From a bacterium (GTDB lineage Bacteria > UBA9089 > CG2-30-40-21 > SBAY01): 19,623 nt of DNA. The position numbers were made by a program, and so were the translations under genes. The notes under the pieces were generated by a model. It made no database searches. It worked only from the letters and a program-made list of their open reading frames with translations, and was not told the DNA's origin. Of the stretch, positions 190 to 17,159 are shown piece after piece; position 1 is the first letter of the stretch; every line of letters begins with the position of its first letter. The stretch spans positions 1-19,623 of the forward strand of contig JBFLYA010000033.1 in the NCBI GenBank assembly GCA_040757115.1, given 5' to 3'.

Positions 190-3100
190 ATGTCGTGTGT
201 TGAATTTCATATCTCTAAAAAATCAAGACTTCGCTATCAGTTTGACGAAAATATCTATTGTTTGTCTGGAAATGCCGTTCTAACAGATTTTTATGCGGTT
301 CGGCTATTTGCTCAAAAAATAAACCAACGCCGTGATTGGACAACTGGTTTTATGGAGCCTGTCCGTGCCAGCCACATCAATGCTATGGGATTAATTGATG
401 AAATCATTCATTATGTTTGCGGTCGGTATCGCCAGGATAAAAATCCCGGCGCCTTGAAGAATGCCGTCAAGTGGCTAAATGACAAATTTGGTGCGGAAAT
501 AATTAATTGCACCCTGCTTAAATTTATCGATGAATTCCCACCACTTCTCGTCTATCAAGAAAGGCAATCTAAAGAGGCGTATCTTAAAGCAGAAACCAAC
601 GGTATACCCCATTCTGAAATCCTGACAGAAGAGATGATTTGTCTATATTTAGCCAATAATAATCCTGCTTTCTTATCGTTTGCTGAATTGTTTGAGGATT
701 TTGAATTAAAGAAAACAACACCCTATCCACAAATTGTAAGTTCACTTATTGATTATTTTAACACTCAGCCGCGATTTGGTGCAAAAGAAGAGTGTCTGAT
801 TGATTTTTTAAGGGCACCAGTAAAGGCATCACCGCATTCGTTAACAGGTCAACTGGCTTATATTAGAGAAAATTGGGCTCATTTGCTCTCAAAAGACCTT
901 CTTTACCGCATTTTACTGGCACTTGATTTAATCAAAGAAGAAGACAAATTTCGGGCAATTGGCGCCGGACCAACATTAGTCCCGGATTTCAAACTCATTG
1001 ATACTGGTTTGGGCCCTGAATATGAGCGTTTTAGCCCGGATGCAGATTGGATGCCAAATGTAGTTTTAATAGCCAAAAATGTCTATGTCTGGCTGGAGCA
1101 ATTATCTAAAAAATATCACCGAGCCATAACTAAGCTGGATGAGATACCTGATGAGGAATTAGATATTTTAGCCAGATGGGGATTTACGGCTTTGTGGCTG
1201 ATTGGTTTATGGGAAAGAAGTCCAGCCTCCCAAAAAATAAAGCAGATTTGTGGAAATCCAGAGGCAATCTCATCAGCCTACTCACTTTATGACTACACCA
1301 TTGCTGAGGATTTAGGAGGGGAGTCTGCACTTATGAATTTGCGACATCGGGCATTTAGTCACGGTATTCGATTATCCAGCGATATGGTGCCAAATCATAT
1401 GGGCATATACTCAAAATGGATGATTGAACATTCTGACTGGTTTATTCACTTAAGACACAGCCCTTTTCCCTCATATCGGTTTACCGGGGTTAATCTATCC
1501 TGGGATGAGCGAGTTGGGATTTATATCGAGGATGGTTATTGGAATAGGCAGGATGCGGCAGTTGTCTTTAAACGAGTTGACCATTGGACTGGCGACGAAA
1601 GATACATTTATCACGGCAATGATGGCACGCATATGCCCTGGAATGATACGGCTCAGTTGAATTTTCTGATGCCAGAGGTGCGTGAAGCAGTTATCCAGAC
1701 AATCCTTCATGTCGCCAGGCAATTTCCCATCATCCGTTTTGATGCGGCAATGACGCTGGTTAAAAAACACTATCAACGACTCTGGTTTCCCCAACCTGGT
1801 AGTGGTGGTGATATTCCATCAAGGGCTGAATATGGCATAACTAAAAAAGAATTTGACCAACTCTTTCCTGCAGAATTCTGGAGAGAGGTGGTTGACCGAG
1901 TTGCGGCTGAGGTGCCTGAGACACTACTTCTGGCAGAGGCTTTCTGGCTGATGGAAGGTTATTTTGTTCGCACACTTGGTATGCACCGCGTCTATAATAG
2001 TGCCTTTATGAACATGCTTAAAATGGAAGAAAATGCAAAATATCGCTCGGTAATAAAAAATGTATTAGAATTTAACCCCCAAATATTGAAGCGGTTTGTT
2101 AATTTTATGAATAACCCGGATGAAGAAACCGCTGTAGCTCAATTTGGCAAAGATGATAAATATTTTGGTGTGCTTTTGATGATGGTCACAATGCCTGGCT
2201 TACCTATGTTTGGTCATGGACAAATCGAAGGGTTTGGAGAAAAATATGGGATGGAGTATCGAAGGGCATACTGGGATGAACAGGTGGACTGGAATCTCGT
2301 CTGGCGACACGAAAGCGAAATATTCCCTTTAATGAAAAAACGATACCTGTTCAGTGGTGTTGAAAATTTTCTGCTTTATGATTTTTATAATCAACACGGC
2401 TATGTAAATGAAAATGTCTTTGCCTATTCTAATATGTGTGGAGATGAGAGAGCGATTATCCTTTATCACAATAAATTTGAGCAGGCCGCTGGCTGGATTA
2501 AAACATCTGCCGCTTTTTCGCTTGATGGCAAACACCTCATCCAGAAAACATTAGCCGATGGACTAAAATTAAAAACCGATGACCCATATTATTATATCTT
2601 TAAAGATTACAAAACTGGACTTGAATACATCCGTCAGGGGCGAGAAATTGCCCAAAATGGACTGTATGTCCAGTTAGATGCATTCAAATACCATATCTTT
2701 ATGGATTTCCGTGAAATATATGACACCCCTGAAGGACACTATCGGAATCTAACAAATTTCCTCAACGGTCGCGGTGTGCCAAATATTGAAGAGGCAGTCA
2801 CCGAGCTCTATCTTAAACCAATCCACACACCTTTTACGGCAATTATAAATCCAGACACCCTTCATAAATTGGCTGGTGGTGAGATAAACGAATTTGAGGA
2901 TAAAATCAGGGCATTGCTGTGGGCAGTTAAACACTTTAGCGAAGGACTGGGTGATGTCGAAACGGTTATTAGTCATTTAAAAAGAGTTTTTTTGGCGGCA
3001 CTCCAACTGGAAAAATTGGATGTCCCTGAGGCTATTGACTTTTTCCACACCTATCCTAACAATAAAAGAATTTTGTTAATCTGGCTGGTGGTTTATTCCT

Positions 3101-3510
3101 TAGGACGGATAAAAACACAGACAACTGATTATGAGGAACAAAGCCTGACCTGGGTTGATGAATGGTTGCTGGGCAAGATTATTCGACAAACTATTCAGGC
3201 AATGGGAACAGAGGACTGGGTGGCTTATCGTCAGGAATTTTTGATAAAGATTTTGATTAAGCATCACCAGTGGGTTAAAAATCCTTTAATTAATATCTTA
3301 AAAGACACGGAGGTTCAAAATTACATTCATTTAAATAGATATGAAGGGGTATTGTATTTTCACAAGGAGAGTTTTGAGGAGTTGATGAATTGGCTCTTTA
3401 TAGTTTCAATCGTAGATGAACCCACTGGTATCATTGAGCGATATGAAGTTGTCCGTAAATTCATCCAATCCGCCGAAAAGGCAAAATATCAATTTAATAA
3501 AATGAGGTAA
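190..3510 (+). CDS. GH13 alpha-amylase family glycoside hydrolase, large form
   Basis: This 1106-residue protein probably acts on alpha-glucans (hydrolysis or transglycosylation). The GH13 conserved regions are visible. Region I is DMVPNH at residues 398-403. Region II is IRFDAAM with the presumed nucleophile Asp518. Region III is LLLAEAF with the presumed acid/base Glu583. Region IV is NNPDEE with the presumed transition-state stabiliser Asp644; the usual NHD is replaced by NPD. A MPGLPMFGHGQ segment follows, as in related enzymes. The first ~320 residues precede the barrel and match no domain I can name. The last ~300 residues are mostly helical and also unassigned. No signal peptide is visible, so a cytoplasmic location is inferred. 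The ATG is preceded by an AAGGA Shine-Dalgarno about 7 bases upstream. Assignment to GH13 is firm; the exact substrate is not. Storage-glycan metabolism is the simplest guess. Confidence 0.9.
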   Translation: MSCVEFHISKKSRLRYQFDENIYCLSGNAVLTDFYAVRLFAQKINQRRDWTTGFMEPVRASHINAMGLIDEIIHYVCGRYRQDKNPGALKNAVKWLNDKFGAEIINCTLLKFIDEFPPLLVYQERQSKEAYLKAETNGIPHSEILTEEMICLYLANNNPAFLSFAELFEDFELKKTTPYPQIVSSLIDYFNTQPRFGAKEECLIDFLRAPVKASPHSLTGQLAYIRENWAHLLSKDLLYRILLALDLIKEEDKFRAIGAGPTLVPDFKLIDTGLGPEYERFSPDADWMPNVVLIAKNVYVWLEQLSKKYHRAITKLDEIPDEELDILARWGFTALWLIGLWERSPASQKIKQICGNPEAISSAYSLYDYTIAEDLGGESALMNLRHRAFSHGIRLSSDMVPNHMGIYSKWMIEHSDWFIHLRHSPFPSYRFTGVNLSWDERVGIYIEDGYWNRQDAAVVFKRVDHWTGDERYIYHGNDGTHMPWNDTAQLNFLMPEVREAVIQTILHVARQFPIIRFDAAMTLVKKHYQRLWFPQPGSGGDIPSRAEYGITKKEFDQLFPAEFWREVVDRVAAEVPETLLLAEAFWLMEGYFVRTLGMHRVYNSAFMNMLKMEENAKYRSVIKNVLEFNPQILKRFVNFMNNPDEETAVAQFGKDDKYFGVLLMMVTMPGLPMFGHGQIEGFGEKYGMEYRRAYWDEQVDWNLVWRHESEIFPLMKKRYLFSGVENFLLYDFYNQHGYVNENVFAYSNMCGDERAIILYHNKFEQAAGWIKTSAAFSLDGKHLIQKTLADGLKLKTDDPYYYIFKDYKTGLEYIRQGREIAQNGLYVQLDAFKYHIFMDFREIYDTPEGHYRNLTNFLNGRGVPNIEEAVTELYLKPIHTPFTAIINPDTLHKLAGGEINEFEDKIRALLWAVKHFSEGLGDVETVISHLKRVFLAALQLEKLDVPEAIDFFHTYPNNKRILLIWLVVYSLGRIKTQTTDYEEQSLTWVDEWLLGKIIRQTIQAMGTEDWVAYRQEFLIKILIKHHQWVKNPLINILKDTEVQNYIHLNRYEGVLYFHKESFEELMNWLFIVSIVDEPTGIIERYEVVRKFIQSAEKAKYQFNKMR

Positions 3511-3765
3511 CCGTTCACCGCAAGATGCCACAGAGACGCAGAGAAAAAAATAAAAAACTATTTACCATACACTTCATTCCATCCCTGATTTTCATCAGAG
3601 CAATCTTTTGAGGACCGACATCTCATGATTGATTAACAATTTGGTTTTGATGTCCTATGTATTGCATCAATAATCTTTTCTGTTATCTGATTTATTTCCC
3701 TGTCTTCTCCGTTCCTCTGCGTCTCTGCGGTAAATTACCACCTGAACGGTTACCTGAATAGTTAC
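3507..3765. mobile_element. Inverted-repeat element A (GTAAC-ended, GxxExxY remnant inside)
   Basis: Two arms flank about 170 bases. Outer words GTAACCGTTC (3507-3516) and GAACGGTTAC (3744-3753) are exact reverse complements. Inner words CAGAGACGCAGAG (3531-3543) and CTCTGCGTCTCTG (3715-3727) are also exact complements. A second, variant end word CTGAATAGTTAC follows at 3754-3765. The left arm overlaps the stop codon of the amylase-like gene. The interior holds a decayed minus-strand coding sequence (see separate entry). It may also act as a transcription barrier after the amylase gene. Mobility is inferred from structure and from the similar elements elsewhere in the window; no target duplication is evident. 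Confidence 0.6.
3595..3707 (-). pseudogene. Internally deleted GxxExxY-type gene remnant
   Basis: On the minus strand, from about 3707, one frame reads EDREINQITEKIIDA followed by IHRT. This resembles the start of GxxExxY proteins (PDDEXK_3, a PD-(D/E)XK nuclease-like family), whose N-terminus typically reads xINxITEKIIGAAIEVHR. The frame then hits a stop. In another frame ending at 3595, the sequence reads KLLINHEMSVLKRLL and then stops, resembling the family's C-terminal LLINFNVxxLKxGIKR. The middle of the gene, including the GxxExxY motif itself, is missing. I infer a large internal deletion that left both ends. Similarity was judged by eye, so the family call is moderate. The remnant is enclosed by the arms of element A. 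Confidence 0.5.
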
Positions 3766-3776
3766 TCAAATTTTAC

Positions 3777-3804
3777 TTGCGAAAAATTAATTCTATGATA
3801 AAAT
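3777..3804 (+). promoter_or_regulatory. Possible promoter for the zinc-ribbon gene
   Basis: TTGCGA (3777-3782) and TAAAAT (3799-3804) are separated by 16 bases. The predicted transcription start, near 3811, lies only a few bases before the ATG at 3815, so the mRNA would be nearly leaderless. No Shine-Dalgarno is visible ahead of this ATG. Confidence 0.35.
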
Positions 3805-3814
3805 ATATATTATT

Positions 3815-4129
3815 ATGTTAGTATGTCCTAAATGTGGTTATGAAAATTCAGATGATGCTTTATGTTGCAATTTATGCAACAAAATCTTTCGTAAGGAAAA
3901 GAAAGAGAGCCTTCAAGAAAAGAAAATAAATTCTATAAATGACCTACCCGAAAATATTAAAAATTTACTTGTTCAGCAAAAAATGGAAATTATGGATAAG
4001 GGGAAAGAGGAATTTTTATGGACAACGGCGAATGTAAAAAAGGGATGTTTTTTATTTGCTATCATTGTGATAGGTTTTTTTGCCATAATTTTATTACGCT
4101 TTATTTTCCCGCTATTTATGAAACCATAG
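3815..4129 (+). CDS. Zinc-ribbon protein with a C-terminal membrane segment
   Basis: This 104-residue protein starts MLVCPKCGYENSDDALCCNLC. It has a CxxC pair at residues 4 and 7 and a second CxxC at 18 and 21 (Cys17 adjacent), the usual small zinc ribbon. A charged Lys/Glu-rich linker follows. A hydrophobic segment at about residues 78-101 should cross the membrane, leaving the ribbon in the cytoplasm. This architecture is common in many bacteria and its function is generally unknown. It stands alone between element A and a terminator-like hairpin, with its own weak promoter. No Shine-Dalgarno precedes the ATG, which may indicate leaderless translation. The gene looks real because of the cysteine pattern and membrane segment, but no specific role can be given. 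Confidence 0.75.
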   Translation: MLVCPKCGYENSDDALCCNLCNKIFRKEKKESLQEKKINSINDLPENIKNLLVQQKMEIMDKGKEEFLWTTANVKKGCFLFAIIVIGFFAIILLRFIFPLFMKP

Positions 4130-4139
4130 CGAAAACACC

Positions 4140-4177
4140 ATTCGGGTCAGATTTTTTTCAAAAGAGCCGAATTTTTT
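4140..4177 (+). terminator. Candidate terminator after the zinc-ribbon gene
   Basis: ATTCGG (4140-4145) pairs with CCGAAT (4167-4172) and a run of six T follows directly. The stem is short and the loop is A/T-rich, so this is a weak intrinsic terminator at best. It sits between the zinc-ribbon gene and the next promoter. Confidence 0.35.
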
Positions 4178-4178
4178 G

Positions 4179-4207
4179 TTGACAAAGGATAAAATTTGTG
4201 GTAAAAT
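4179..4207 (+). promoter_or_regulatory. Consensus sigma70-type promoter of the glycan block
   Basis: TTGACA at 4179-4184 and TAAAAT at 4202-4207 are separated by exactly 17 bases. Transcription would start near 4214, about 75 bases before the cupin ATG. This is the only strong promoter I see ahead of the cupin-GT2-reductase genes, so it probably drives all three. Confidence 0.7.
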
Positions 4208-4290
4208 CTTCCCACCAGAAGAACCAAAAATGGATATAACAGTCAAGACACTCCAAAAGCAAATTCCTATCAGTAAAGGAAAAATATAAG

Positions 4291-4668
4291 ATGAAACGAC
4301 TAAAACCTTATGTCATTTTTGAAGATAACCGTGGGGTATTTTTAGGAATAACCCATGACCATATTTGGAAAGAGATTAATATCATTGAGACATGTGCTAA
4401 TGTTATGAGAGGAAATCATTATCACAAATTTACCACAGAACTATTTTATATTATCGAAGGGGATATTGATGTAGAGATATATAGTCTTAAAGACGACTTA
4501 CAAAAAATGGAATTTAAGGCTAAAAAAGGGGATATATTTATTGTTGAACCTTTTGAAGTGCATAGATTTAAGGCTAATATAGATTCAAAATGGATAAATA
4601 TGCTTTCCGAGATATTAGATAAAGAGGCGCCTGATATTTATCGCTATCAACCAGAAGGAGAAATATAG
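4291..4668 (+). CDS. Cupin protein, WxcM/RmlC-like sugar-biosynthesis type
   Basis: The product is a 125-residue single-domain cupin. The first cupin motif is seen as GNHYHKFTTE, with His43, His45 and Glu50. The second is VEPFEVHRF, with His91. All four usual metal ligands are therefore present. Small cupins of this kind, related to FdtA/WxcM and to RmlC, often sit in nucleotide-sugar and surface-polysaccharide clusters, where they isomerise or epimerise dTDP-keto sugars or act as unassigned accessory proteins. The ATG follows an AAAGGA about 10 bases upstream and is the first gene after a consensus promoter. The next gene starts two bases after this stop, so the two are probably cotranscribed. 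The exact reaction cannot be deduced; a role in glycan precursor synthesis is inferred from neighbours. Confidence 0.7.
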   Translation: MKRLKPYVIFEDNRGVFLGITHDHIWKEINIIETCANVMRGNHYHKFTTELFYIIEGDIDVEIYSLKDDLQKMEFKAKKGDIFIVEPFEVHRFKANIDSKWINMLSEILDKEAPDIYRYQPEGEI

Positions 4669-4670
4669 AT

Positions 4671-5387
4671 TTGGAATTATCTGTTGTTATCCCAACATAT
4701 AATGAGAAGGGAAATATCGAAATTTTAGTTCCTGCTATTCAAGAGGTATTTAAAGATAATAAAATAGATGGGGAGATAGTTATCATTGATGATAATTCAA
4801 CAGATGGAACGATAGAGACAGTAAAACAATTTGCCCTTCAAAATAAAAATGTGAGATTAAAGGTAAGGGAGGGAGAAAAAAGTTTAGCTAAAGCATGGAT
4901 AGAAGGATTTGAGCTGGCAAAAAAAGAAATAATAGTTTGTATTGATGCAGATTTATGTCATAACCCTAAATATTTTCCTTTAATGTTAAGCAAGATGGAG
5001 GATTATGACATTGTTATCGGTTCTAGATACTTAATCCATAAAAAAGGACAGATAATGGCAGGTAAATCTTTATTAGCCTGTTATGTTAGCGAAATAGGAC
5101 AGACAATTACCCGGATGTGTACAGGATTATCTCAAACTGATACCTCACATAGCTTTAGGATGTTTAAGAAAAAGGTTTTTGATGATATAAAACCTTACCT
5201 GAAATATCAAGGGAATGTCTTCCTGATTGAATTTTTATACATGGCAGTTAAAAAAGGTTATAAGGTTACAGAGATAGAAATAGATTATGGAAAAAGAGAG
5301 TATGGGAAGACAAAACTTATTGTTCTAAAAGAAGGACTTAGATATCTTTATTATGTTTGGCAGTTAAGATGGCGGAAAATCAAATGA
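4671..5387 (+). CDS. GT2 glycosyltransferase, DPM1-like
   Basis: This 238-residue GT-A fold enzyme has the family-2 hallmarks: VVIPTYNE near the N-terminus, IDDNSTDG at residues 39-46 (nucleotide binding), the metal-binding DAD at 92-94 and GSRY at 117-120. The length and motif spacing match dolichol/polyprenol-phosphate mannosyltransferase-like enzymes without a C-terminal membrane domain. It likely moves a sugar from a nucleotide donor to a polyprenyl phosphate at the cytoplasmic membrane face. The start is a TTG, chosen because it lies just after the cupin stop and an AAGGAG about 11 bases upstream; no ATG lies close by in frame. Its stop overlaps the next ATG. Donor sugar and acceptor are not determined by the sequence. 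Confidence 0.8.
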   Translation: MELSVVIPTYNEKGNIEILVPAIQEVFKDNKIDGEIVIIDDNSTDGTIETVKQFALQNKNVRLKVREGEKSLAKAWIEGFELAKKEIIVCIDADLCHNPKYFPLMLSKMEDYDIVIGSRYLIHKKGQIMAGKSLLACYVSEIGQTITRMCTGLSQTDTSHSFRMFKKKVFDDIKPYLKYQGNVFLIEFLYMAVKKGYKVTEIEIDYGKREYGKTKLIVLKEGLRYLYYVWQLRWRKIK

Positions 5388-6292
5388 AAAAAGGATTAAT
5401 TACAGGCGCTAATGGTAAATTAGGCAATTATTTTCTTAAAAGATTTTTTTCTTCAGGATATGAAATAAGCGGTATAGATAAAATATGGGAGAATATTCCA
5501 CCAGAACTTAAGGTAAAAACGGTAGATATATTAGATAACTCACTCCTATGGAAGATAGTTCTGGAAATAAAACCCGATTTTATTATCCACTGTGCGGCGA
5601 TTAAAGATGTCTTTTATTGCGAAGAACACCCAGAGGATACATGGTTAGTTAATGTAGTAGGAACTCAAAATATCGTAGAAATATGTGAGGAATTAGGGAT
5701 AAAATTAATATTTATATCCAGTGATTATGTCTTTGATGGAGAGAAAGGTTGGTATGCAGAAGAAGATATCCCTAACCCCCAAACTTGTTATGGCCAGAGT
5801 AAATTAAAGGGTGAAGAAATAATTAAAGAGAAACTCTCTGATTATGTTATTTGCCGCACGGGAGGTATCTTTGGATATAACGATGATTTCATTGATTGGG
5901 TAAAGGAAAAGTTAGTGCAAAGAAAAGAGGTTAATGCATATTCTAATATATTCAATACTCCTACATATCTGCCTAGTTTAACAGAGATGATTGAGGAAAT
6001 AATGCAGAGAAACATAGAAGGAACTTTTCATCTGGCAGGTAGAGAACGAATCAATCGGTTTGGATTTGCTTTGAAGATAGCTAAAGAATTTAACTTAGAT
6101 TTAAACTTGGTTAAGGAAGAAAGATACGAAGATAAAATAGATAAAGGATTAAGACCGCGAGATTTATCACTTTGTTCTTTAAAAGCACAAAAGGTATTAA
6201 AGACTAAATTCCTCAGTATTGACGAAACATTAAGGCATATAAGAAGATTTAACAATGTAAAAAATAGAATGAAAGACGAATGGGATTCATAA
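5384..6292 (+). CDS. RmlD-like NAD(P)-dependent sugar reductase/epimerase
   Basis: The product is an extended short-chain dehydrogenase of 302 residues. The Rossmann nucleotide site is TGANGKLG at residues 7-14. SSDYVFDG (112-119) and the catalytic pair YGQSK (Tyr136, Lys140) follow, an arrangement typical of dTDP-4-dehydrorhamnose reductase and relatives. It probably reduces a nucleotide-linked 4-keto sugar. The frame is open further upstream, but I prefer the ATG at 5384. It overlaps the GT2 stop as ATGA, a coupling arrangement, and places the Rossmann motif right at the N-terminus; GGCGGA lies about 8 bases before it. With the cupin and GT2 it forms a three-gene unit. I do not assign rmlD because rmlA and rmlB partners are not in the window. 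Confidence 0.8.
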   Translation: MKKGLITGANGKLGNYFLKRFFSSGYEISGIDKIWENIPPELKVKTVDILDNSLLWKIVLEIKPDFIIHCAAIKDVFYCEEHPEDTWLVNVVGTQNIVEICEELGIKLIFISSDYVFDGEKGWYAEEDIPNPQTCYGQSKLKGEEIIKEKLSDYVICRTGGIFGYNDDFIDWVKEKLVQRKEVNAYSNIFNTPTYLPSLTEMIEEIMQRNIEGTFHLAGRERINRFGFALKIAKEFNLDLNLVKEERYEDKIDKGLRPRDLSLCSLKAQKVLKTKFLSIDETLRHIRRFNNVKNRMKDEWDS

Positions 6293-6309
6293 AGAATTTT
6301 TGTAACTAT

Positions 6310-6451
6310 TGCCTTGTCGCCATTCAAGTGATTGATTGGCCGTTGTTCCCCGCTGGCGGGGGTAGGGGGTGGATCCTTCTATTTCAGATTTCATATTCCA
6401 CCCCCTTAATCCCCCGCCAGCGGGGGACATCAATTGAGTAGCGACAGAGCA
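6310..6451. mobile_element. MITE-like element, copy 1
   Basis: This 142-bp element differs from the copy at 8456-8597 by only about four substitutions. The right end is GCGACAGAGCA; the left end TGCCTTGTCGC is a slightly mutated version of TGCTCTGTCGC. Inside, CCCCCGCTGGCGGGGG and CCCCCGCCAGCGGGGG are reverse complements, so nearly the whole element can fold into one hairpin. It has no coding capacity. The flanks are CTAT on the left and CTAG on the right, consistent with a 4-bp target duplication that has since mutated. It lies in the gap after the reductase gene. Confidence 0.8.
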
Positions 6452-6471
6452 CTAGCATAAAGGTTGAAATA

Positions 6472-6583
6472 GTGTAAGAAAAGGAGATATGGGGATTATG
6501 GAGATAAATTCATTCTAAAATTTTGCAAATTACAATGAATAATCTCCATATCTCCCTTTATCTCCTTATCCCCTTTTTTACAC
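6472..6583. repeat. Imperfect inverted repeat just after MITE copy 1
   Basis: The left arm (6472-6514) begins GTGTAAG and contains GGAGATATGGGG. The right arm (6534-6583) contains CTCCATATCTCC and ends TTTTTTACAC. The arms match with several small gaps around a short AT-rich centre. There is no coding potential. Together with the MITE it fills the 364-base gap before the methyltransferase gene. It is distinct in sequence from the GTAAC-ended elements. Confidence 0.6.
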
Positions 6584-6656
6584 CAAATCTGAATAGATTT
6601 CACTATTAGCGTTATTTTCAGACACCACCAAAAATTGGGGGGAAGATAAAAAACGG

Positions 6657-7562
6657 TTGGTTTTAAACTTCAGTCAAATCCGAGCTCTGGAGAGGTTGAG
6701 AGAGCTCTATTTAAGAAGGAGGGAATTTATTAATGGGATGAAAGAATTAGTAGTTGATAAAAGAGAAAAAATTGAGTGTAAAAAAAAACTACAAGAATAT
6801 TTATTACATGCTCCAGTGTGCCATGTACTTCAAAGAATTATTGAATATCGAAAAATAAAGGAACATAAAGAAAAACTTATTGATCCTATATTAGATATTG
6901 GATGTGGAGATGGAATTTTTGCTTCTATGTTATTTGATGATTCCATATTTATGGGTATTGATTTGTCTATGAGCGAAATTGCTCTGGCACGAAGAAAAAA
7001 GATTTATAAAAATCTACTGGTGGGAAGTGTGGAGAAATTACCATTTTCTTCAGAATCCTTTAAAACAGTTTCAAGTAATTGTGTAATAGAGCATATACCA
7101 AATTTAGAAAATGCACTTAAGGAAATATATCGAGTTTTGAAAAAAGATGGCTATTTTATTTTTACGGTCCCAAGTAAATTAAGGGAAGTTTATAGCCCTT
7201 TCCCATGGATGCGACAAGTAGGAATAAATTTTTTCCCAAATCTAATGAACAAATTATTAAGGTTACTTTGGCAGGAATATCATTTTTATTCTCCTGGTGT
7301 GTGGAAGGAAAAATTGGAACAAACAGGATTTGAAGTTGTAATATGTGAGTATTTTTTCCCAAAAGAAGCTTATGCCACTTATGGTCGATTCCTTTTTTTC
7401 TCTGCCATTTCCTTGATTACCAAGAAAATTTTTAATAGATGGATACTATTTTCCAGTTGGCGAAATCTTTTTATCCCATTTATAGCTAAGTACTTAGAGA
7501 AATATTACCTGTTAGAAGGGAAAGATGGTACTGAATTGTTATTGATATCTTATAAAAAATAG
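6657..7562 (+). CDS. Class I SAM-dependent methyltransferase
   Basis: This 301-residue protein carries motif I, LDIGCGDG, at about residues 79-86. An acidic residue follows at strand 2 (GIDLS), then LPFSSESFKTV and IEHIPNLENALKEIYRVLKKDG, the Methyltransf_11 pattern. The enzyme transfers a methyl group from SAM; in this neighbourhood the substrate could be a sugar or lipid-linked glycan intermediate. The start is uncertain. The TTG at 6657 has GGGGGG 14 bases upstream; an ATG at 6738 (Met28) has AAGGAGGG about 14 bases upstream. The N-terminal 70 residues are charged and helical. The next gene follows after a 15-base gap and is likely cotranscribed. Methyltransferase identity is firm; the substrate is unknown. 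Confidence 0.8.
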   Translation: MVLNFSQIRALERLRELYLRRREFINGMKELVVDKREKIECKKKLQEYLLHAPVCHVLQRIIEYRKIKEHKEKLIDPILDIGCGDGIFASMLFDDSIFMGIDLSMSEIALARRKKIYKNLLVGSVEKLPFSSESFKTVSSNCVIEHIPNLENALKEIYRVLKKDGYFIFTVPSKLREVYSPFPWMRQVGINFFPNLMNKLLRLLWQEYHFYSPGVWKEKLEQTGFEVVICEYFFPKEAYATYGRFLFFSAISLITKKIFNRWILFSSWRNLFIPFIAKYLEKYYLLEGKDGTELLLISYKK

Positions 7563-7577
7563 AAAAGGAGACTTTCA

Positions 7578-8285
7578 ATGTCTACTCTACGATCACTCAT
7601 TATTATTCCTACTTACAATGAAGCTGAGAATATTGAACCTCTTCTTAACCAAATTTTTTCAATGAAAGAAAATTTTCATATCTTAGTCATTGATGATAAT
7701 TCTTGTGATGGTACAGGAAAAATTGTAGATAAATTATCTATAGAAAATACTCGCCTTCATGTGATTCATCGACCATCAAAACAAGGATTAGGATCAGCAT
7801 ATGTGTGTGGATTCAAATATGCATTAGAAAGAGATTTTGATTTAATCTTTCAAATGGATGCTGATTTTTCTCACGATCCTCAATACTTACCCCAATTCTT
7901 GAAGGCTATTGAAGATAATGATGTAGTCATAGGTTCAAGATATAGTGAAGGAATTAGTGTAGTAAAGTGGTCTTTGAATCGTCTACTTCTTAGCATTGCA
8001 GGATGTTTCTATGCCCGATTTATTACAAGATTGAAAATTAGAGATATTACCGGGGGATTTAAATGTTTTAGAAGAAAGGTATTAGAAACTATTGATCTGA
8101 ATAAGATACACTCAGATGGATATGCATTCCAGATTGAAATGAATTACAAATGTGTAAAAAAAGGATTTAGAGTTAAAGAAATAAGTATAATTTTTGTTGA
8201 CCGGCGAGTTGGTATTTCCAAGATGTCTGGCTACATTATCAAAGAAGCAATTATTACTCCTTGGAAATTAATTTTGGGATTCTAA
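7578..8285 (+). CDS. GT2 glycosyltransferase, polyprenol-phosphate mannosyltransferase-like
   Basis: This 235-residue family-2 transferase is the second of its kind in the block. It has LIIIPTYNE, VIDDNSCDG (about 37-45), MDADFSHDP with the metal-binding DAD at 94-96, GSRY (119-122) and a DITGGFKCFRRKVL segment. The latter is characteristic of DPM1/Ppm1-like polyprenol monophosphomannose synthases and agrees with them better than the GT2 at 4671 does. It probably charges a polyprenyl phosphate with a hexose for use by a membrane GT-C enzyme, such as the one encoded at 9178-10707. There is no C-terminal membrane domain. AAAAGGAG lies about 8 bases before the ATG. Confidence 0.85.
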   Translation: MSTLRSLIIIPTYNEAENIEPLLNQIFSMKENFHILVIDDNSCDGTGKIVDKLSIENTRLHVIHRPSKQGLGSAYVCGFKYALERDFDLIFQMDADFSHDPQYLPQFLKAIEDNDVVIGSRYSEGISVVKWSLNRLLLSIAGCFYARFITRLKIRDITGGFKCFRRKVLETIDLNKIHSDGYAFQIEMNYKCVKKGFRVKEISIIFVDRRVGISKMSGYIIKEAIITPWKLILGF

Positions 8286-8306
8286 AAATATAGTAAGTGG
8301 TGAAAA

Positions 8307-9067
8307 ATGTTAAGCCAAGACTACTTCAAAAATTCATTAGGAATATATAAATTCCCGTGGAGTATTTACCATTCTCCTATCAAGGATGAGATTATAAAAG
8401 AGTTAAAACTTTTGCCGCAGGATTATAAAGTGCTAAATGTAGGATGTGGTTCTAGTGCTCTGTCGCCATTCAAGTGATTGATTGGCCGTTGTCCCCCGCT
8501 GGCGGGGGTAGGGGGTGGATTCTTCTATTTCAGATTTCATATTCCACCCCCTTAATCCCCCGCCAGCGGGGGACATCAATTGAGTAGCGACAGAGCACTA
8601 GTCTGTTAGATAATTTACTCCATCAGCAAGTATATGGAGTTGATATAGACAAAAAGGCAATTGAATTTTGCTGGAAACATTATCACAAAGGTAAAGAACG
8701 ATATAAACTAGTTGCTGTGGATCAGAAATATCCATTTGAAGATGAGTTTTTTGATATAGTCTTATGTACAGAAGTTATCGAACATGTAATGAATATTCCG
8801 TTTTTTTTAGGAGAAATAAAAAGGGTATTGAAATCAGAAGGAATAATTTTACTCAGTACACCTAATTATAATTCTTTGTTACTCAAAATGTTAGAATCTA
8901 CTATTCTTGAATTGATTGCCCGAAAAAGGGGATTTACAAGGAAAATCTTACATCCAAATAAATATACTGAAAAACGATTAAAAGTTTGTCTTGAGAAATA
9001 CTTTAGTGCTTTAGAAATAAGAAACATTAGCCTGGGCATGGTTCTATTTGTAAAAGCTAAAAAATGA
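8307..9067 (+). pseudogene. SAM-dependent methyltransferase gene split by a MITE
   Basis: The 5' part (from ATG 8307) reads into KVLNVGCGSS, a methyltransferase motif I. It then enters the 142-bp MITE and stops at 8475-8477. The 3' part carries YGVDID, DEFFDIVLCTEVIEH and VLKSEGIILLSTPNY, the rest of a Methyltransf_11 fold, and stops at 9065-9067. Deleting 8456-8601 (element plus one CTAG copy) joins GCGSS directly to LLDNLL and gives an unbroken 204-residue methyltransferase. The reconstruction fits the family order exactly. Besides the insertion I see no other lesion, so the disruption looks recent. The 3' fragment could be translated from an ATG at 8717, but it would lack the SAM-binding motif and should be inactive. 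Confidence 0.85.
8456..8597. mobile_element. MITE-like element, copy 2, with CTAG target duplication
   Basis: The termini TGCTCTGTCGC and GCGACAGAGCA are perfect inverted repeats. The element is 142 bp and flanked by CTAG at 8452-8455 and 8598-8601. Most of its length is self-complementary, including CCCCCGCTGGCGGGGG and its complement. It encodes no protein and must have been moved by a transposase supplied elsewhere. A 4-bp duplication of the form YTAR is known for some IS5- and IS701-related elements; linking this MITE to either is inference. It is in the same orientation as copy 1. Confidence 0.9.
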
Positions 9068-9177
9068 AGTGAAAATATATGCAATATAAAAGTTTATGTA
9101 TAGCAATTTTGAACCAAAGGGTTGATTAAAACAATAACACAGAATTAATATTGTAAATATCGTAGAGAAGTTTAGAC

Positions 9178-10707
9178 ATGGATAATAAAAACATAAAAAA
9201 AATTAATAATATCCATTTTTTATTTTGGGTCTTATTATATGGAATCTTTATGCGGCTAATATTTGCATATATCTATGTAAACTTTCCAGAAACTCCTCAT
9301 GATTTTTATGCATATATAGGTGGTGCAAAATTATTACTAAATAATCAACCCCTTTATAGAATACCTTTAGAAAATAAAATACCCTTTTCGTATGGTCCAC
9401 TTACTGCAATTGTATTTGCAAGTTGGATAAAGGTATTTGGTGAAAATTATATCCTATTGAAATTCCCAAGTATAATATTTGATTGTTTGACGATGATAAT
9501 TCTCTTTTCTCTTATAAAAGAATTAGTTAATGAGGCAACAGCAAAATTTGGTTCATTCCTTTATACTTTCTCATATCTTCCTTTACTTAGTTCTGGGGCA
9601 TTAGGTAATAATGATAACATGTACATATGTTTCATGTTACTTTCTATATATCTTTTAATTAAAAATAGATTTACTTTAGCAATGGTCAGTTATGGAATAA
9701 CATTAGGATTTGCAATTCATATGGTTCCTGTTTTCCCTGCTATAATATATTATTTATACAAAAAAGTCGGATTTATAAATCTATTAAAATACATTAGTTT
9801 TATGTGTATTACATTTTTTTTAATCCTTTTTCCCTTTTATTTCAACTCTGGGCCACAGGTATTACACCCTTATATTGGCATGGCAACAACTATTTTTAAC
9901 TTATGCTTATTGTCTCCTTTAAACTTCCTACGTTTATTAGCAGGATTTTATGTTAATGTTATTCATTACATTACTACACATACTGTAATATCTAAAGACT
10001 TAAATCCTATTCCTCCTCATTCAAATCATCCTATTAATTTATTCTTTAATCAAATAGCTACTCCATTTCTTATCATTGGAGTTATTTTTATCTTCTGGTA
10101 TATGATCAAATTTAGATTAGAGGATAAAAAAATAGAACTATTACGAAATTCCTTTTTATGGATATTTGGGATATTACTATTCTCAAAAATTTCTACGGAT
10201 TTACACTATACATGGCTTATCTGTCCACTTTTAGTCTTAATGTTGTTTAGAGAACAAGGAATATTTAATGAATTTAGGCTAAAAAATCAAGAGATTTTTG
10301 GTGCTATTTTAACTTTTATAGGTTTATTAATACTTACTCTTATATGTTGTAGAGGAGAGAGGGTTGAAACATGGAGATGGACATTATTTTTCATCCCAAT
10401 CATTATACCTATAGGAACATACCTTATGTTTTATAGAAGTAAAATAAGAAGGAGTTGGGCAATATTAATGTGTGGAAGTGCATGTTTTGAGATAACGCCA
10501 GATAATCCATTATTAATATTAAAACCCTTCTTAGTAAAATTTATCCCTGAAACTCCAATATCCTTTGGCACATACCTTTCTTATGCCACTTATTATCCTT
10601 TTTCTCTTATGATGCTTTTAATAACAGTAATAGGAATAATATTACTTGCTAAAGATATGCATTGTCTTATGAAAGATTCCGGGGACACGAAAGGAGAATT
10701 AAGGTAA
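9178..10707 (+). CDS. Multipass GT-C-type glycosyltransferase (GT87/DUF2029-like)
   Basis: This 509-residue protein is strongly hydrophobic, with perhaps 10-12 membrane segments. After the first segment comes a loop with HDFYAYIGGAKLLLNNQPLY and FSYGPLTA. This pattern (an acidic residue just after TM1, then PLY and YGP motifs) is seen in GT-C enzymes that use polyprenyl-phosphate sugars, such as GT87 mannosyltransferases. It probably adds a sugar from a lipid donor on the outer face of the membrane, with the DPM1-like GT2 at 7578 as a plausible donor supplier. The ATG is preceded only by a weak GAGAAG. It follows the broken methyltransferase after 110 bases and is the last gene of the block. 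GT-C membership is likely; the acceptor is unknown. Confidence 0.65.
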   Translation: MDNKNIKKINNIHFLFWVLLYGIFMRLIFAYIYVNFPETPHDFYAYIGGAKLLLNNQPLYRIPLENKIPFSYGPLTAIVFASWIKVFGENYILLKFPSIIFDCLTMIILFSLIKELVNEATAKFGSFLYTFSYLPLLSSGALGNNDNMYICFMLLSIYLLIKNRFTLAMVSYGITLGFAIHMVPVFPAIIYYLYKKVGFINLLKYISFMCITFFLILFPFYFNSGPQVLHPYIGMATTIFNLCLLSPLNFLRLLAGFYVNVIHYITTHTVISKDLNPIPPHSNHPINLFFNQIATPFLIIGVIFIFWYMIKFRLEDKKIELLRNSFLWIFGILLFSKISTDLHYTWLICPLLVLMLFREQGIFNEFRLKNQEIFGAILTFIGLLILTLICCRGERVETWRWTLFFIPIIIPIGTYLMFYRSKIRRSWAILMCGSACFEITPDNPLLILKPFLVKFIPETPISFGTYLSYATYYPFSLMMLLITVIGIILLAKDMHCLMKDSGDTKGELR

Positions 10708-10711
10708 CACT

Positions 10712-11024
10712 GTAACTGTTCAGCCACTGATTAACACAGATTGACACGGATAAAATAGAATGAGTTTAAAATATGAAAAAAGAACCGAGAATGTGCATTT
10801 GAAGTCTACAATATTTTGGTTATGCCTTTTGGGAAAGAGTTTATCAAAAAACATAATAGATTGAATTATTAGCCTGGAAATATTCACCAGAATTGGAATA
10901 CCCCATTAAAGTAAAATACACAGCAGTTATGGTTGGCGAATAGTAATCTGATTGAGGTGGATTAGCACGGATAAAAAAATAAAATCCGTGTTTTATCCGT
11001 GTCCATCTGTGGCTGAATAGTTAC
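10712..11024. mobile_element. Inverted-repeat element B (GTAAC-ended, GxxExxY remnant inside)
   Basis: The left arm GTAACTGTTCAGCCAC (10712-10727) matches the reverse complement of GTGGCTGAATAGTTAC (11009-11024) with one mismatch. The next stretch, AGATTGACACGGATAAAA (10738-10755), matches the complement of 10991-11008, again with one mismatch. The left arm carries ten extra bases. A local hairpin (CACGGAT 10966-10972, ATCCGTG 10984-10990) adds to the right side. The element fills the gap between two convergent genes, where it could act as a bidirectional transcription barrier. It encloses a frameshifted GxxExxY-type gene. Confidence 0.65.
10760..10943 (+). pseudogene. Frameshifted GxxExxY-type gene remnant
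   Basis: Three overlapping frames together read like an N-terminal GxxExxY protein (PDDEXK_3). From ATG 10760 the frame gives MSLKYEKRTENV. From 10792 another frame gives CAFEVYNIL. From 10818 the third gives GYAFWERVYQKT, matching the family's GFLExVYxKA motif with Gly replaced by Ala. Two stops follow at 10854-10859. The same frame resumes at 10860 with IELLAWKYSPELEYPIKV and ends VMVGE plus TAG at 10941-10943. Family proteins continue with VGEYxADLLVED, which is absent, so the 3' part is deleted. Recognition is by eye, but the consecutive matches in order are unlikely by chance. Confidence 0.65.
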
Positions 11025-11048
11025 CTTTTTTGAAAGTATGAAGTTGGG

Positions 11049-12251
11049 TTAAAATGGCAATTCACTCATTCCAAAAATAGGTAATAAAATAGCGGCAAAA
11101 ATAAAGGCAACGATTAATCCCATAAATAATATTATGCCCGGCTCTAATAAGGCAATTAAACCTCGTAATGAATTTCTAATTTTTGTCTCATAGGTACTGG
11201 CAATCTTATTCAACATATCCTCTAAATTACCCGTTTCTTCACCACAGGCAACCATTTCAACCAAAAGGTCAGGAAATACACCTGTTGCTCTAAGAGGTGT
11301 AGCTATCTTTTCGCCTTCTTTTATGCTTCCATGAACATCAGATATCCCTTTTGCTATCACTGCATTACCCACAGCAGATTTAACTATAAGCAATGACGGT
11401 AATAATGCCACGCCGCCTTTTAATAAAGTTCCCAGACTTTTACTAAATCTATTCACAGCTATCATTTCTACTATCGGACCTAACACAGGCATTTTTAATT
11501 TGAATTGGTCAAATGAATATCGTCCTTTTGTCGTTCCAAGATACCCTTTAAATCCAAAGATAGAAATTAAGACTATTCCTGAAATCACCCACCACCAATT
11601 GAGTATAAATTTAGTCACGGAGATCAGCAGTAAGGTAATTAAAGGTAGACTTTCACCCATCTCATTAAAGATAGTAATAAATCTTGGCACAACAAATGTA
11701 AAGAGAATAGTAATCGCCACGATAACAAATAAGATTAAAATACACGGATATGCCATTATCGACCTGAGATATTCTTTTAAATCTTCATCTTTTTCCATAA
11801 AATCTGTTAATCTATTTAAGATAAGTTCTATTGAGCCACTTGCCTCTCCTACCTTGACCATATTTATATAAAGTGGGGAGAAAAATTCTGAATGGTTGGC
11901 TAATGCATCGGATAAAGGATTTCCTTTTTCAATCTCTCTTTTTATCTCATAGATAACCGTTTTTAACCTTTGATTTTTGGTTAATTCCTCTAAAACACCA
12001 AGACTTTTATCCAATGGCATACCGGCATCAAGCAGACTTGATAAAGATTGAGTAAATGCAAGAATATCTTTAGATTTTATCTGCTTAAAAAAGCCTCCAA
12101 TACCTTTTTTTTGAACTTCCTCTTTAATTTCTATTGGAAAGAGACTTTGTTTTCTTAATTTGTCAATTATTACTTCTGGTTTATTGCCTTCTATTATTCC
12201 CTGTAAAATTTTACCTTCTTGATTAGAGGCTTTATAAGTAAATCGTGGCAT
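11049..12251 (-). CDS. Type IV pilus/type II secretion platform protein (PilC/GspF family)
   Basis: This 400-residue inner-membrane protein begins MPRFTYKASNQEGKILQGII, the typical PilC/GspF start. It has two cytoplasmic T2SSF domains, at about residues 67-190 and 270-390. There are three membrane segments, near 165-190, 205-235 and 370-395. The second repeat contains the familiar PLLVEMVACGEETGNLEDML. It organises pilin or pseudopilin assembly with a cytoplasmic ATPase, which is not encoded here. It is the last gene of the five-gene minus-strand operon and starts 11 bases after the preceding stop, with AAGGAAAGG-like bases as Shine-Dalgarno. Length and domain order are normal for the family. 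PilC and GspF cannot be told apart by sequence alone. Confidence 0.93.
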   Translation of the reverse strand: MPRFTYKASNQEGKILQGIIEGNKPEVIIDKLRKQSLFPIEIKEEVQKKGIGGFFKQIKSKDILAFTQSLSSLLDAGMPLDKSLGVLEELTKNQRLKTVIYEIKREIEKGNPLSDALANHSEFFSPLYINMVKVGEASGSIELILNRLTDFMEKDEDLKEYLRSIMAYPCILILFVIVAITILFTFVVPRFITIFNEMGESLPLITLLLISVTKFILNWWWVISGIVLISIFGFKGYLGTTKGRYSFDQFKLKMPVLGPIVEMIAVNRFSKSLGTLLKGGVALLPSLLIVKSAVGNAVIAKGISDVHGSIKEGEKIATPLRATGVFPDLLVEMVACGEETGNLEDMLNKIASTYETKIRNSLRGLIALLEPGIILFMGLIVAFIFAAILLPIFGMSELPF

Positions 12252-12262
12252 TATACCTTTCC

Positions 12263-13348
12263 TTATTTTCTTCGATATGCTGGATTTATAGCTCGAGGTT
12301 GAATTCTTGTTTGAAATGTGGCGCTCACCGTCCCTTTGCCAACACCACCTTTTGGATAAGTTTTAACCTCACCTTTAATCTCAATCATTCCAATTGAATT
12401 TACCTCTTCAAGAGTTACTGTCCCATAGGGAATTGTCGTTACTCCATCTGTGCCATAATAAGTAATGGTAAAAGTAGCAATATCTTCTGCGACAAGATAC
12501 GGTCCTAAATGCCGTTTAGAATCTGGTTTATCTTCATTTATCTTGCGGATGATAGTATTTGTTCCTGGAAGATATTCATAACTGATAACCGCAGAACTGA
12601 TGAAATTATTTGAATTTCGCACATCAGTGGCATCTTCATTATCTCCATCTCCATTATAATCACCAGGAATTGAATCCAATATTCCATTATTGCCTGGCGT
12701 AACTAATATTTTACCAATACCTGTAGAATTTCCTGCTGGAACGACCTGGACATCATCTCCCCGGTTTTTTGTGTAACATATAGTATTTACGGTATTATTT
12801 CCCATCAAAATCACGGCATCCTTTCCACAACTCATAAGCCAACCACGGGCATAATCATCGGAACTATCTCTTTCCGCCAAAGTTGCTGTTCCATCGCCAT
12901 TTATATCTCCTGGGATTGAGTATAAACTCCCACTTGTGCCTACAGTGATTAAGATTGCATCTTGCCTATTTGCCATGGGAATACTTCCAGTGCCGATTGA
13001 TTGAATATCACCTTTATAAGCCAATGTTGAACAGATGCTATCTGTCCCATTCACAATGGCTACCGGTCCAATAAATCTGATTTTATTGTTTCTTAAATAA
13101 AATTCTGTTTTATCAGGGTCAGCATTTAAAATAGCTTGTAATTCACGCAACTCAGATTCCATCCCGCGCCAATTACCGCTTCCACTTACAATTTCCCTTG
13201 CCGTATTTTGAACATTGATGAATGGTTGTTCGCCTATCCAACTTCTTAATCCCGCCCTCATAAAATCAATAATAATAATCAATATAATAGCTAAAGCTAT
13301 CATACTAAATATTGCCTCTATAATTGTAAATCCCTGTCTGTTTTTCAT
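12263..13348 (-). CDS. Type IV pilin-like protein with two calcium-loop motifs
   Basis: The 361-residue product starts MKNRQGFTIIEAIF: a class III prepilin signal with cleavage after Gly6, Phe at +1 and Glu at +5. A hydrophobic helix of about 25 residues follows. It is long for a minor pilin and in position resembles GspJ-type subunits. The globular part has two D-x-N-x-D-G loops, GDINGDG at 147-153 and GDYNGDG at 229-235. Each is preceded by a similar sequence (ILITVGTSGSLYSIP and ILVTPGNNGILDSIP), so a module of about 21 residues appears duplicated. Such loops bind calcium in EF-hand and dockerin domains; binding here is inferred. It would be exported and processed by a prepilin peptidase and built into a pilus or pseudopilus. 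Its ATG overlaps the preceding stop by four bases. Confidence 0.85.
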   Translation of the reverse strand: MKNRQGFTIIEAIFSMIALAIILIIIIDFMRAGLRSWIGEQPFINVQNTAREIVSGSGNWRGMESELRELQAILNADPDKTEFYLRNNKIRFIGPVAIVNGTDSICSTLAYKGDIQSIGTGSIPMANRQDAILITVGTSGSLYSIPGDINGDGTATLAERDSSDDYARGWLMSCGKDAVILMGNNTVNTICYTKNRGDDVQVVPAGNSTGIGKILVTPGNNGILDSIPGDYNGDGDNEDATDVRNSNNFISSAVISYEYLPGTNTIIRKINEDKPDSKRHLGPYLVAEDIATFTITYYGTDGVTTIPYGTVTLEEVNSIGMIEIKGEVKTYPKGGVGKGTVSATFQTRIQPRAINPAYRRK

Positions 13349-13770
13349 GATATATTTCCTATGTAAGTAAATAGTCTTCTTTTATGAACTATATTTTCCT
13401 GCCAGCCAACTTCAACCGTGACCCTTAAATAATTACCACTTGCTGGTGAGGTTACCTCTCCAGTTGAATCATTAATTCCTTCAATCGTGATTGTCCAGCT
13501 GCCTTTGCAAGAACCTATGGTTGCTGTTCCACTGGTTGGAAATGGTAATGGTTGGGTAATTAATGAGGTATAATCTAATTGCCGCATTTTAACCTCTTCC
13601 AACTTTGTTCGACATAGATTCATTGCCTCATTAGCATTTGAAGTTGTTACCACATTCATTGTCCCTTTCATAAACATATTAACAATACTCATTACGCCAA
13701 CAATTAGAATTAATGCGGCAATCATTAATTCTACGAGACTAACACCAAACTCACTCTTCCTTTTTTCCAT
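13345..13770 (-). CDS. Minor pilin, PilV/GspI-like
   Basis: This 141-residue protein starts MEKRKSEFGVSLVELMIAA. The prepilin cleavage site is after Gly9, with Val at +1 (instead of the usual Phe or Met) and Glu14 at +5. The hydrophobic helix LILIVGVMSIVNMF follows. The segment NEAMNLCRTKLEEVKMRQ is typical of PilV/GspI-type minor subunits, where A..LA...lE.i reads shortly after the helix. It would join an initiation complex with the neighbouring pilin-like proteins. Its start overlaps the end of the upstream gene by 20 bases and its stop overlaps the next ATG, so translation is probably coupled through the operon. Family placement is good; the PilV versus GspI distinction is uncertain. Confidence 0.85.
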   Translation of the reverse strand: MEKRKSEFGVSLVELMIAALILIVGVMSIVNMFMKGTMNVVTTSNANEAMNLCRTKLEEVKMRQLDYTSLITQPLPFPTSGTATIGSCKGSWTITIEGINDSTGEVTSPASGNYLRVTVEVGWQENIVHKRRLFTYIGNIS

Positions 13771-14278
13771 CTTTAGGTTTTCCTTTATACATACTTCTAA
13801 ATAGAAGAACTATTGTGGTTATCATCACTATAATTACCAGGATAATGGAAATGTTTCTTTTATTTTTAAATTCTTGAGCTATTTTTTCCTGTTTTTCTAT
13901 TTTCTTGATTTCTTCAGCCTTTTTTTCAGTGGGGACCACTCCAGGAACAATTCCTTTTGCCTCCTGTTGTGCAGGTGTAAGAATGGCTTTTTCTTCTTTT
14001 GATTCCTCGCCTTGTTTTATCTTTTTAGGTGGTTTTTCCTCTTTGGGAACAGATGGGGGTGGAAGTTGAATAAGTTTTTGTATTTGTTGTTGTTCTTCTT
14101 TTTTTTGTTTTTCCTCTAAGAGGTCTCTTGCCATTTGTTCTTTTTGTCTTTTCATCTCCTCATATCTTGCCTTTGCCTCATCCGGGGTAATTTCCTTCTC
14201 AAGTGGGATACCTGCTATTGCTTTAGTGCTACTAAAAATGATGAAACAAATTATAAGAAATTTACAAAAATCTTTCAT
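13751..14278 (-). CDS. Charged envelope protein of unknown function in the pilin operon
   Basis: I do not recognise this 175-residue protein. It begins MKDFCKFLIICFIIF, followed by SSTKAIAG, which looks like a signal peptide cleaved near residue 23. Residues ~33-70 are Lys/Glu/Gln-rich and should form a coiled coil (RYEEMKRQKEQMARDLLEEK). A Pro/Lys/Glu-rich stretch follows, then a second hydrophobic segment (NISIILVIIVMITTIVLLF) near 143-161 and a basic tail. The predicted form is a periplasmic coiled coil tethered by its C-terminus. The frame is open to a TTG six codons upstream, but AAGGAGGT (14285-14292) lies inside that extension, six bases before the ATG at 14278. The ATG overlaps the preceding stop. 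Its position between pilin-like genes suggests a structural or assembly role; this is inference. Confidence 0.75.
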   Translation of the reverse strand: MKDFCKFLIICFIIFSSTKAIAGIPLEKEITPDEAKARYEEMKRQKEQMARDLLEEKQKKEEQQQIQKLIQLPPPSVPKEEKPPKKIKQGEESKEEKAILTPAQQEAKGIVPGVVPTEKKAEEIKKIEKQEKIAQEFKNKRNISIILVIIVMITTIVLLFRSMYKGKPKDGKKEE

Positions 14279-16413: not shown

Positions 16414-16575
16414 ATTAGTAACCGTTCAGGTAGTCTGGTATCTGGGTGTCTAAGTGTCTGGGTTACATAGACTACCAGACACATAGACACCCTTTACTCA
16501 AAATTGTAGGATTTGTTACTATCCTGATTTCCTGGCTGTTAACTGATTGCTGATGGCTGAACGCTTACTAATATT
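16411..16575. repeat. Inverted-repeat element C (GTAAC-ended), inside the tRNA leader
   Basis: AATATTAGTAACCGTTCAG (16411-16429) and CTGAACGCTTACTAATATT (16557-16575) are reverse complements with one mismatch. An inner pair, GGGTGTCTAAGTGTCTGG (16444-16461) and CCAGACACATAGACACCC (16475-16492), also differs at one base. The first bases overlap the -10 box. There is no coding content. The end word GTAACCGTTCAG links it to elements A and B. Confidence 0.7.
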
Positions 16576-16698: not shown

Positions 16699-17159
16699 AG
16701 CGAATTAGAGATTAGAGATTGGAGAATAAAAAATGGCAAAGTCCTTTTATGCTCTAAAGATATGGCAGAAAGGATATGAGATTCTTATGAAGATCTATGA
16801 GATTACTTCTACATATCCTGTAGAGGAACGATATGCCCTGGTAATTGATACTCGTAGATCAGCCAACTCTATAATTGCCAACATTGCTGAGAGTCATGGT
16901 AGATATTATTTTGCTGATAAAATACGAGTGTTGTATACCGCAAGGGGTGAACTAGAGGAGACAAGGAGTCACTTAAAGGTTGCTTGTGGAAGAAAATACA
17001 TTTCAGAGGAAAAGTTTAAAGAAATAGATGAAGAATATGAAGGGTTATCTAAGGGAATTAGCGGTTATATTCAAAATATTGAGTCCCAAAAGTCTAATGA
17101 GTAATAACCTTATTCCACTAATCTACTAATTCACTAATTCGCTAATTCACTAATTCGCT
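16699..17159. mobile_element. IR-bounded cassette carrying the S23-type gene
   Basis: AGCGAATTAG (16699-16708) is the exact reverse complement of CTAATTCGCT, which occurs twice on the far side (17134-17143 and 17150-17159). Similarity extends inward: the left side goes on AGATTAGAGATTGGAGAATAA, and the complement of the right side reads GAATTAGTAGATTAGTGGAATAA. The arms enclose only the four-helix-bundle gene. Intervening sequences in bacterial 23S rRNA have the same plan, an S23 gene within a stem. Here the cassette begins six bases after the tRNA CCA rather than inside rRNA. Mobility is inferred. Confidence 0.5.
16733..17104 (+). CDS. Four-helix-bundle protein, S23 family (23S rRNA intervening-sequence protein type)
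   Basis: This 123-residue protein starts MAKSFYALKIWQKGYEILMKIYEIT and contains YPVEERYALVIDTRRSANSIIANIAESHGR. That is the signature of the S23/four-helix-bundle family (usual form: FPxxExxgLxxQlRRAavSIpsNIAEGxgR). The rest (LYTARGELEETRSHLKVA) also fits: an SxxElext helix. The length is typical. Family members form homopentamers in known structures and were first found as reading frames in 23S rRNA intervening sequences; their biochemical role is unknown. GGAG lies eight bases before the ATG. The gene lies just after tRNA-Leu, between inverted repeats, and before gyrA. The Gln of QLRR is Asp here (IDTRRS), a minor departure. Confidence 0.9.
   Translation: MAKSFYALKIWQKGYEILMKIYEITSTYPVEERYALVIDTRRSANSIIANIAESHGRYYFADKIRVLYTARGELEETRSHLKVACGRKYISEEKFKEIDEEYEGLSKGISGYIQNIESQKSNE

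Follow-up and report, generated by a model that had tools for sequence, protein, structure and literature searches.

Two inverted-repeat elements, A and B, in the 19,623-nt stretch of bacterial DNA analyzed here (contig JBFLYA010000033.1, positions 1 to 19,623; hereafter the window) are probably decayed, nonautonomous copies of a composite mobile unit, in which a core consisting of a GxxExxY gene between inverted short-tandem-repeat arrays is enclosed in IS66-type ends. We directly observe gene remnants in both elements, ends with their duplications, a family of related copies, a layout that recurs across the bacterial domain, a repeat period specific to the gene family, covariation between arms and protein, and one clean insertion of a cassette carrying a gene of a second family, 23S_rRNA_IVP (IVP). 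The original prediction that the repeats and the gene travel together as a small mobile cassette is supported, in two layers: an outer IS66-type layer and an inner tandem-repeat-armed one. Its three arm motifs, treated there as one set, fall into these separate layers; GTAACNNTTCAG is an IS66-type end, and CGCAGAGACGCAG and ACACGGATAAAA are examples of the variable tandem-repeat arms.

Both elements retain recognizable parts of a GxxExxY gene. In A the start of the gene lies on the minus strand (INQITEKIIDAIHRTSKPN) and gives a weak match to the first 20 amino acids of GxxExxY proteins (65% identity, tblastn E = 0.014). Although the protein match alone is weak, alignment at the DNA level with copies that carry the gene secures its identity. 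Searching the source genome with A as DNA (a 4.3-Mb draft in 462 contigs, for which all genome-wide counts are search-based) recovered 33 further copies covering at least 70% of A, a 34-copy family without a transposase. Copies of this family align at both ends with two 472-bp elements (L003 and L005), in each of which a nearly complete GxxExxY gene is interrupted by one or two stops, and the middle of the gene is missing from A, as expected of the internally deleted gene that had been proposed. Perfect 8-bp duplications are present in 7/28 A-family copies. A sister genome has A at the identical site with the identical deletion (96% identity), and A is therefore old and inherited. Both elements lie where they had been placed, and the repeats bound the remnant as described; A itself spans 3507–3753, and a second end, from a nested or older element, reaches 3765. 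Element B is likewise bounded by repeats, its arms forming an inverted repeat of 30 nt that is 83% complementary. Between the arms, tblastn detects similarity to GxxExxY proteins (E = 1.5e-6), as does our own GxxExxY hidden Markov model (E = 0.0016; the best of 380 background pieces reached E of about 5). The frameshift attributed to this gene lies near its start; the gene also ends ahead of the catalytic D-ExK half and is thus truncated as well as frameshifted. Separately, we noted that the gene upstream of A (190–3510) takes its stop codon (3508–3510) from the element end GGTAAC, and that the gene upstream of B likewise terminates in a similar GGTAAC (10702–10707) adjoining B. At the corresponding sister-genome locus (L131, G005:C98), the end of a different element, one with TTTGCGTTCTTTGCGG arms, takes the place of B's left half, an arrangement in which one cassette type is nested within another.

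The outer layer is an IS66-type miniature inverted-repeat transposable element (MITE), mobile insertion cassette, or passenger-gene element. Members of the IS66 family end in GTAA and are flanked by 8-bp duplications. We class the layer as IS66-type because it has GTAACnnTTCA ends and 8-bp target duplications and because the same ends occur on IS66-family transposase genes. The end motif GGTAACnnTTCA (GTAACnnTTCA) was found at 321 sites in the genome, compared with 12 for its reversed pattern, which served as the control. The genome also holds 65 PF13366 matches, of which about 19 are near full length and many others are deletion fragments, and given these counts the pairing of repeat and gene is far beyond chance. 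Elements A and B and a third, C, all end in GTAACnnTTCA/TGAAnnGTTAC or CTTAC. Just outside such ends, 17/47 paired-end elements have a perfect 8-bp target duplication; perfect duplications also mark elements that bear genes, both GxxExxY (L011, with an open frame, L015, and L017) and IVP (L073). Ends of the same kind enclose the IS66-family transposase genes L061, L268, L269, and L270 on both sides, and L269, an intact transposase from another genus of the same order, has GTAACCGTTCAC on either side. Outer ends enclose 9/19 near-full GxxExxY genes of the source genome vs. 0/31 GxxExxY genes outside the genus, and within the sample examined the layer is confined to this genus. The corresponding frequencies were 2/18 for IVP genes, 0/19 for PIN-domain genes, and 4/194 for displaced positions.

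The inner layer is far more widespread. To score arms, we aligned the 200 bp preceding each gene locally with the reverse-complemented 200 bp that follow it and took the best alignment (cut-off at least 30), in a first sample of 46 GxxExxY loci from the source genome, its phylum, and named genomes (Nitrospinae, Botrimarina, Scalindua, Brocadia, and Spirochaetales) and a second of 26 spread across the bacterial domain. Controls were displaced positions (244 + 139 = 383) and the PIN-domain genes of the source genome (n = 19). Inverted short-tandem-repeat arrays flank 49/72 GxxExxY loci, in several phyla, vs. 1/383 displaced positions (31/46 vs. 1/244 in the first sample and 18/26 vs. 0/139 in the second) and 0/19 PIN-domain genes. 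This comparison of intact homologs with random genes had been put forward as a check on the cassette idea, and its outcome bears that idea out. The arrays are present whether or not outer ends are. Typical arms are ACCGCAGAGACGCAGAGGACGCAGAGG, ACCACAGAGTACACAGAGTTCACAGAG, ACCGCAGATGGACGCAGATGAACGCAGAT, CACGAATTACACGAATTATACGAATT, and GGGGATAAGGGGATGG, and the array period is 8–10 nt, with the best self-match at lag 8, 9, or 10 in 47/51 cases. Among pairs below 65% protein identity, arm similarity climbs with protein identity (r = 0.53, a value reached by 0/2000 permutations, maximum 0.19; loci phylogenetically unthinned). Because neutral DNA would be randomized at this distance, the arms are constrained jointly with the protein. 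As to whether the nuclease drives the spread or is cargo, the covariation favors recognition of the arms by GxxExxY, but the 8-bp duplications at the outer ends are of the DDE-transposase type. Two loci are of separate interest. One contig carries a cluster of six GxxExxY genes in about 41 kb (G159:C1:786477-827837), of which those at 799691 and 800163 are neighbors. At the orthologous site L288/L012 (G005:C323 and G000:C29), the GxxExxY gene is intact in only one of the two genomes, the other having several extra arm copies and just a gene fragment.

The same layout is found around a second, unrelated gene family. Arms accompany 16/18 IVP genes of the source genome and 20/29 domain-wide, compared with 2/165 displaced positions (36/47 in the two samples together). 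The repeat length differs by family: IVP arrays have a period of 7 nt, with a mean self-match of 0.65 at lag 7 and 0.61–0.66 at lag 14 vs. 0.2–0.37 at other lags. Arm–protein covariation among IVP loci was not significant (r = 0.16, 120/2000 permutations). Some IVP genes lie in or beside cas operons, on plasmids of Picosynechococcus PCC 7003 (L223) and Pseudanabaena galeata (L218).

Comparison of related replicons revealed one clean insertion. An IVP cassette on a Trichormus variabilis plasmid, extending from the first to the last CAGAATTCAGAAGTCAG arm, sits 3′ of a stop codon and is lacking from near-identical plasmids of Nostoc linckia NIES-25 and others, whose flanks are about 98% identical; GTAAT is repeated at both junctions. 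Another IVP gene lies between cas10 and cmr3 in Picosynechococcus PCC 7003 and is absent from PCC 7002, where local divergence is too great for exact junctions to be placed. A GxxExxY gene lies between fabD and fabG in Sphingomonas parapaucimobilis, with none at that position in S. paeninsulae or Rhizobium indigoferae.

The predicted fold and the invariant residues of GxxExxY proteins make an active nuclease of Cas4/RecB type very likely. The protein of locus L007 matches the TIGR04256/PF13366 profile at 138.5 bits (cut-off 35), and 25 diverse GxxExxY proteins show no variation at the residues G, E, Y, D, E, K, and Y (D-x9-ExK) and almost none at a Q. An AlphaFold2 model built from 12 relatives (predicted local distance difference test score, pLDDT, 93) has as its closest solved structure the Cas4 protein SSO0001 (4ic1; Foldseek E 1e-4, Z 9.9, root-mean-square deviation 3.2 over 99 residues); the next matches are further restriction-like nucleases, with Z of about 8 and below. 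A sequence-profile search of the PDB found no convincing solved GxxExxY relative. A PADLOC scan returned weak Cas4 resemblance only, and we set aside a role in a defense system. GxxExxY genes are scarce in viral and plasmid collections (2 viral loci and 8 plasmid records), which disfavors reading them as phage genes.

In the scenario we favor, the core cassette would consist of a gene for a GxxExxY nuclease with an inverted short-tandem-repeat array (period 8–10 nt) on either side. In this genus IS66-type ends (GTAACnnTTCA, with 8-bp target duplication) would have enclosed some of these cores, which an IS66-family transposase could move in trans, and internal deletion would then yield MITEs, the 34-copy A family among them. 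More speculatively, GxxExxY would bind and cut its own inverted arrays, perhaps when these are extruded as hairpins, and so help the core to move or persist. The core cassette most likely acts at the DNA level. We extend this only tentatively to the idea that inverted tandem-repeat arrays around one small gene may define a general bacterial class of transposase-less mobile cassettes, in which the gene family would set the period (7 nt for IVP, 8–10 nt for GxxExxY) and the encoded protein would recognize its own arrays, with rRNA intervening sequences (IVSs) and the orphan heptamers found in cyanobacteria and Xanthomonas as possible members or remnants.

Several observations weigh against the composite mobile unit. 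The sister-genome sites of A and of the GxxExxY cassettes L004, L007, and L012 include no clean empty site: both genomes have A, the sites of L004 and L007 are broken, and that of L012 has undergone rearrangement and contains several arm copies. The sole clean insertion pair concerns an IVP cassette rather than a GxxExxY core, and no transposition was observed. Neither A nor B has a target duplication, and both are therefore probably old. The best IS66 transposase gene with matching ends in the source genome has two stops, and transposase loci with such ends lack the 8-bp duplication. Roughly one-third of the intact GxxExxY genes show no arms, and arm–protein covariation could instead reflect joint descent under some constraint other than binding.

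We weighed four other explanations. The elements could be ordinary IS66-derived passenger elements or MITEs whose gene is inert cargo and whose arms are mere long terminal repeats, as the IS66-type ends and 8-bp duplications, the enclosure of both GxxExxY and IVP genes, and the many elements among the sampled loci without an intact gene would suggest. This is possible but on balance unlikely, since the 31 GxxExxY genes sampled outside the genus all lack IS66-type ends and yet most are flanked by tandem-repeat arms, the arm period differs between families, and GxxExxY arms covary with the protein. Alternatively, the arms could act in RNA by forming a long stem that encloses the open reading frame, like the 23S rRNA IVSs cut by RNase III; S23p/IVP genes are known within the stem-loops of rRNA IVSs, and in the Coxiella IVS the gene is preceded by GACAGAT heptamers (PMC4990558). 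We judge this improbable, as A and B lie outside rRNA genes and as sense-strand arm mismatches in related cassettes are no more often of G-U type than of A-C type (83 vs. 70 for GxxExxY, P = 0.17; 43 vs. 44 for IVP), so that nothing points to selection on an RNA stem. A regulatory or defense module kept by host selection, and not mobile, would fit the frequent intactness of the genes and the presence of IVP genes inside cas operons (PMC3936711), but the very numerous decayed copies, the patchy presence across genomes (72/337), insertions inside operons such as fabD–fabG, and the weak Cas4 resemblance in PADLOC make such a module very improbable. Chance low-complexity sequence near small genes is suggested by the simple purine-rich repeats of the arms and is refuted by the displaced and PIN-domain controls and by dinucleotide-shuffle scores, which peak at 21–35.

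Besides A and B, the window holds further elements (Table 1). The inverted-repeat score of its IVP gene is 29, just below the cut-off. A 150-nt repeat present at 6306–6455 and 8452–8601 (97% identity) has its own terminal inverted repeats (CTAGTGCTCTGTCGC/GCGACAGAGCACTAG) and represents a second, unrelated MITE-like family. A TTTGGAATTTGGTGCTTGGAATTTATTTGGAATTTG repeat at 57–114 is similar to the arms of the IVP loci L085/L086 (AAATTCCAAATTCCAAG).

Table 1. Coordinates of the mobile-element features in the window
Feature	Position	Strand	Remarks
Element A, IS66-type MITE with deleted GxxExxY remnant	3507..3753	-	Remnant on minus strand, about 3546-3710
A left outer end GTAACCGTTCA	3507..3517	+	
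A left tandem-repeat arm CCGCAAGATGCCACAGAGACGCAGAG	3518..3543	+	
A right tandem-repeat arm CCTCTGCGTCTCTGCGG	3714..3730	-	
A right outer end TGAACGGTTAC	3743..3753	-	
Second end TGAATAGTTAC adjoining A, remnant of nested or older element	3755..3765	-	
Gene-less hairpin with GTGTAAGAAAAGGAGATATGGGG arms	6471..6583		Arm type of another GxxExxY subfamily (L021, L029)
Element B, IS66-type element with truncated, frameshifted GxxExxY remnant	10712..11024	+	
B left arm, GATTAACACAGATTGACACGGATAAAA type	10723..10756	+	
B GxxExxY remnant	10760..10952	+	Best match 10815-10952; without D-ExK half
B right arm, ACACGGATAAAA type	10963..11013	-	
Element C, gene-less, outer ends as in A and B	16418..16568		Perfect 8-bp duplication TAATATTA at 16410-16417 and 16569-16576
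23S_rRNA_IVP (four helix bundle) gene	16733..17104	+	Imperfect inverted arms 16699-16729 and about 17110-17143

The A family offers a clear birth route for MITEs, the internal deletion of a gene-bearing element. The shared cassette design with family-specific periods provides a DNA substrate to test for both S23p/IVP and GxxExxY proteins. If correct, it would explain the IVP genes within cas operons, which have been recorded as a possible CRISPR-linked function (PMC3936711). It would also offer a source for unexplained heptamer repeats.

A and B thus belong to a known kind of element, the IS66-type MITE, whereas the tandem-repeat-armed core, common to two unrelated families with different periods, appears to be undescribed; we found no published description of arms around GxxExxY genes in the open-access papers searched, and an earlier account may exist elsewhere. 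Like IS66-family MITEs and mobile insertion cassettes, the elements are small, have GTAA ends and 8-bp duplications, lack a transposase, and in some copies carry a passenger gene, but here the interior is a tandem-repeat-armed gene cassette that is found elsewhere without IS66-type ends. They resemble the 23S rRNA IVSs with S23p/IVP genes in being small single-gene elements between inverted repeats, and in Coxiella heptamer repeats lie upstream of S23p in the IVS; IVSs in general have been called unclear in function and origin (PMC4990558). Unlike those IVSs, A and B lie between protein-coding genes, with a nuclease gene and 8–10-nt repeats, and related cassettes show no sign of RNA-stem selection. 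Heptamer repeats reported in Xanthomonas, Nostoc, and Beggiatoaceae are likewise tandem repeats of 7 nt, and those of Xanthomonas often form inverted pairs, but the 7-nt arrays described here bracket IVP genes, a link of which we found no mention in those reports (PMC4692102, PMC4679880). Finally, GxxExxY shares with Cas4/RecB-family PD-(D/E)XK nucleases its predicted fold, the D-ExK residues, and a QxxxY-like motif, and differs from them as a single-domain protein of 120–130 amino acids encoded within its own repeat arrays.

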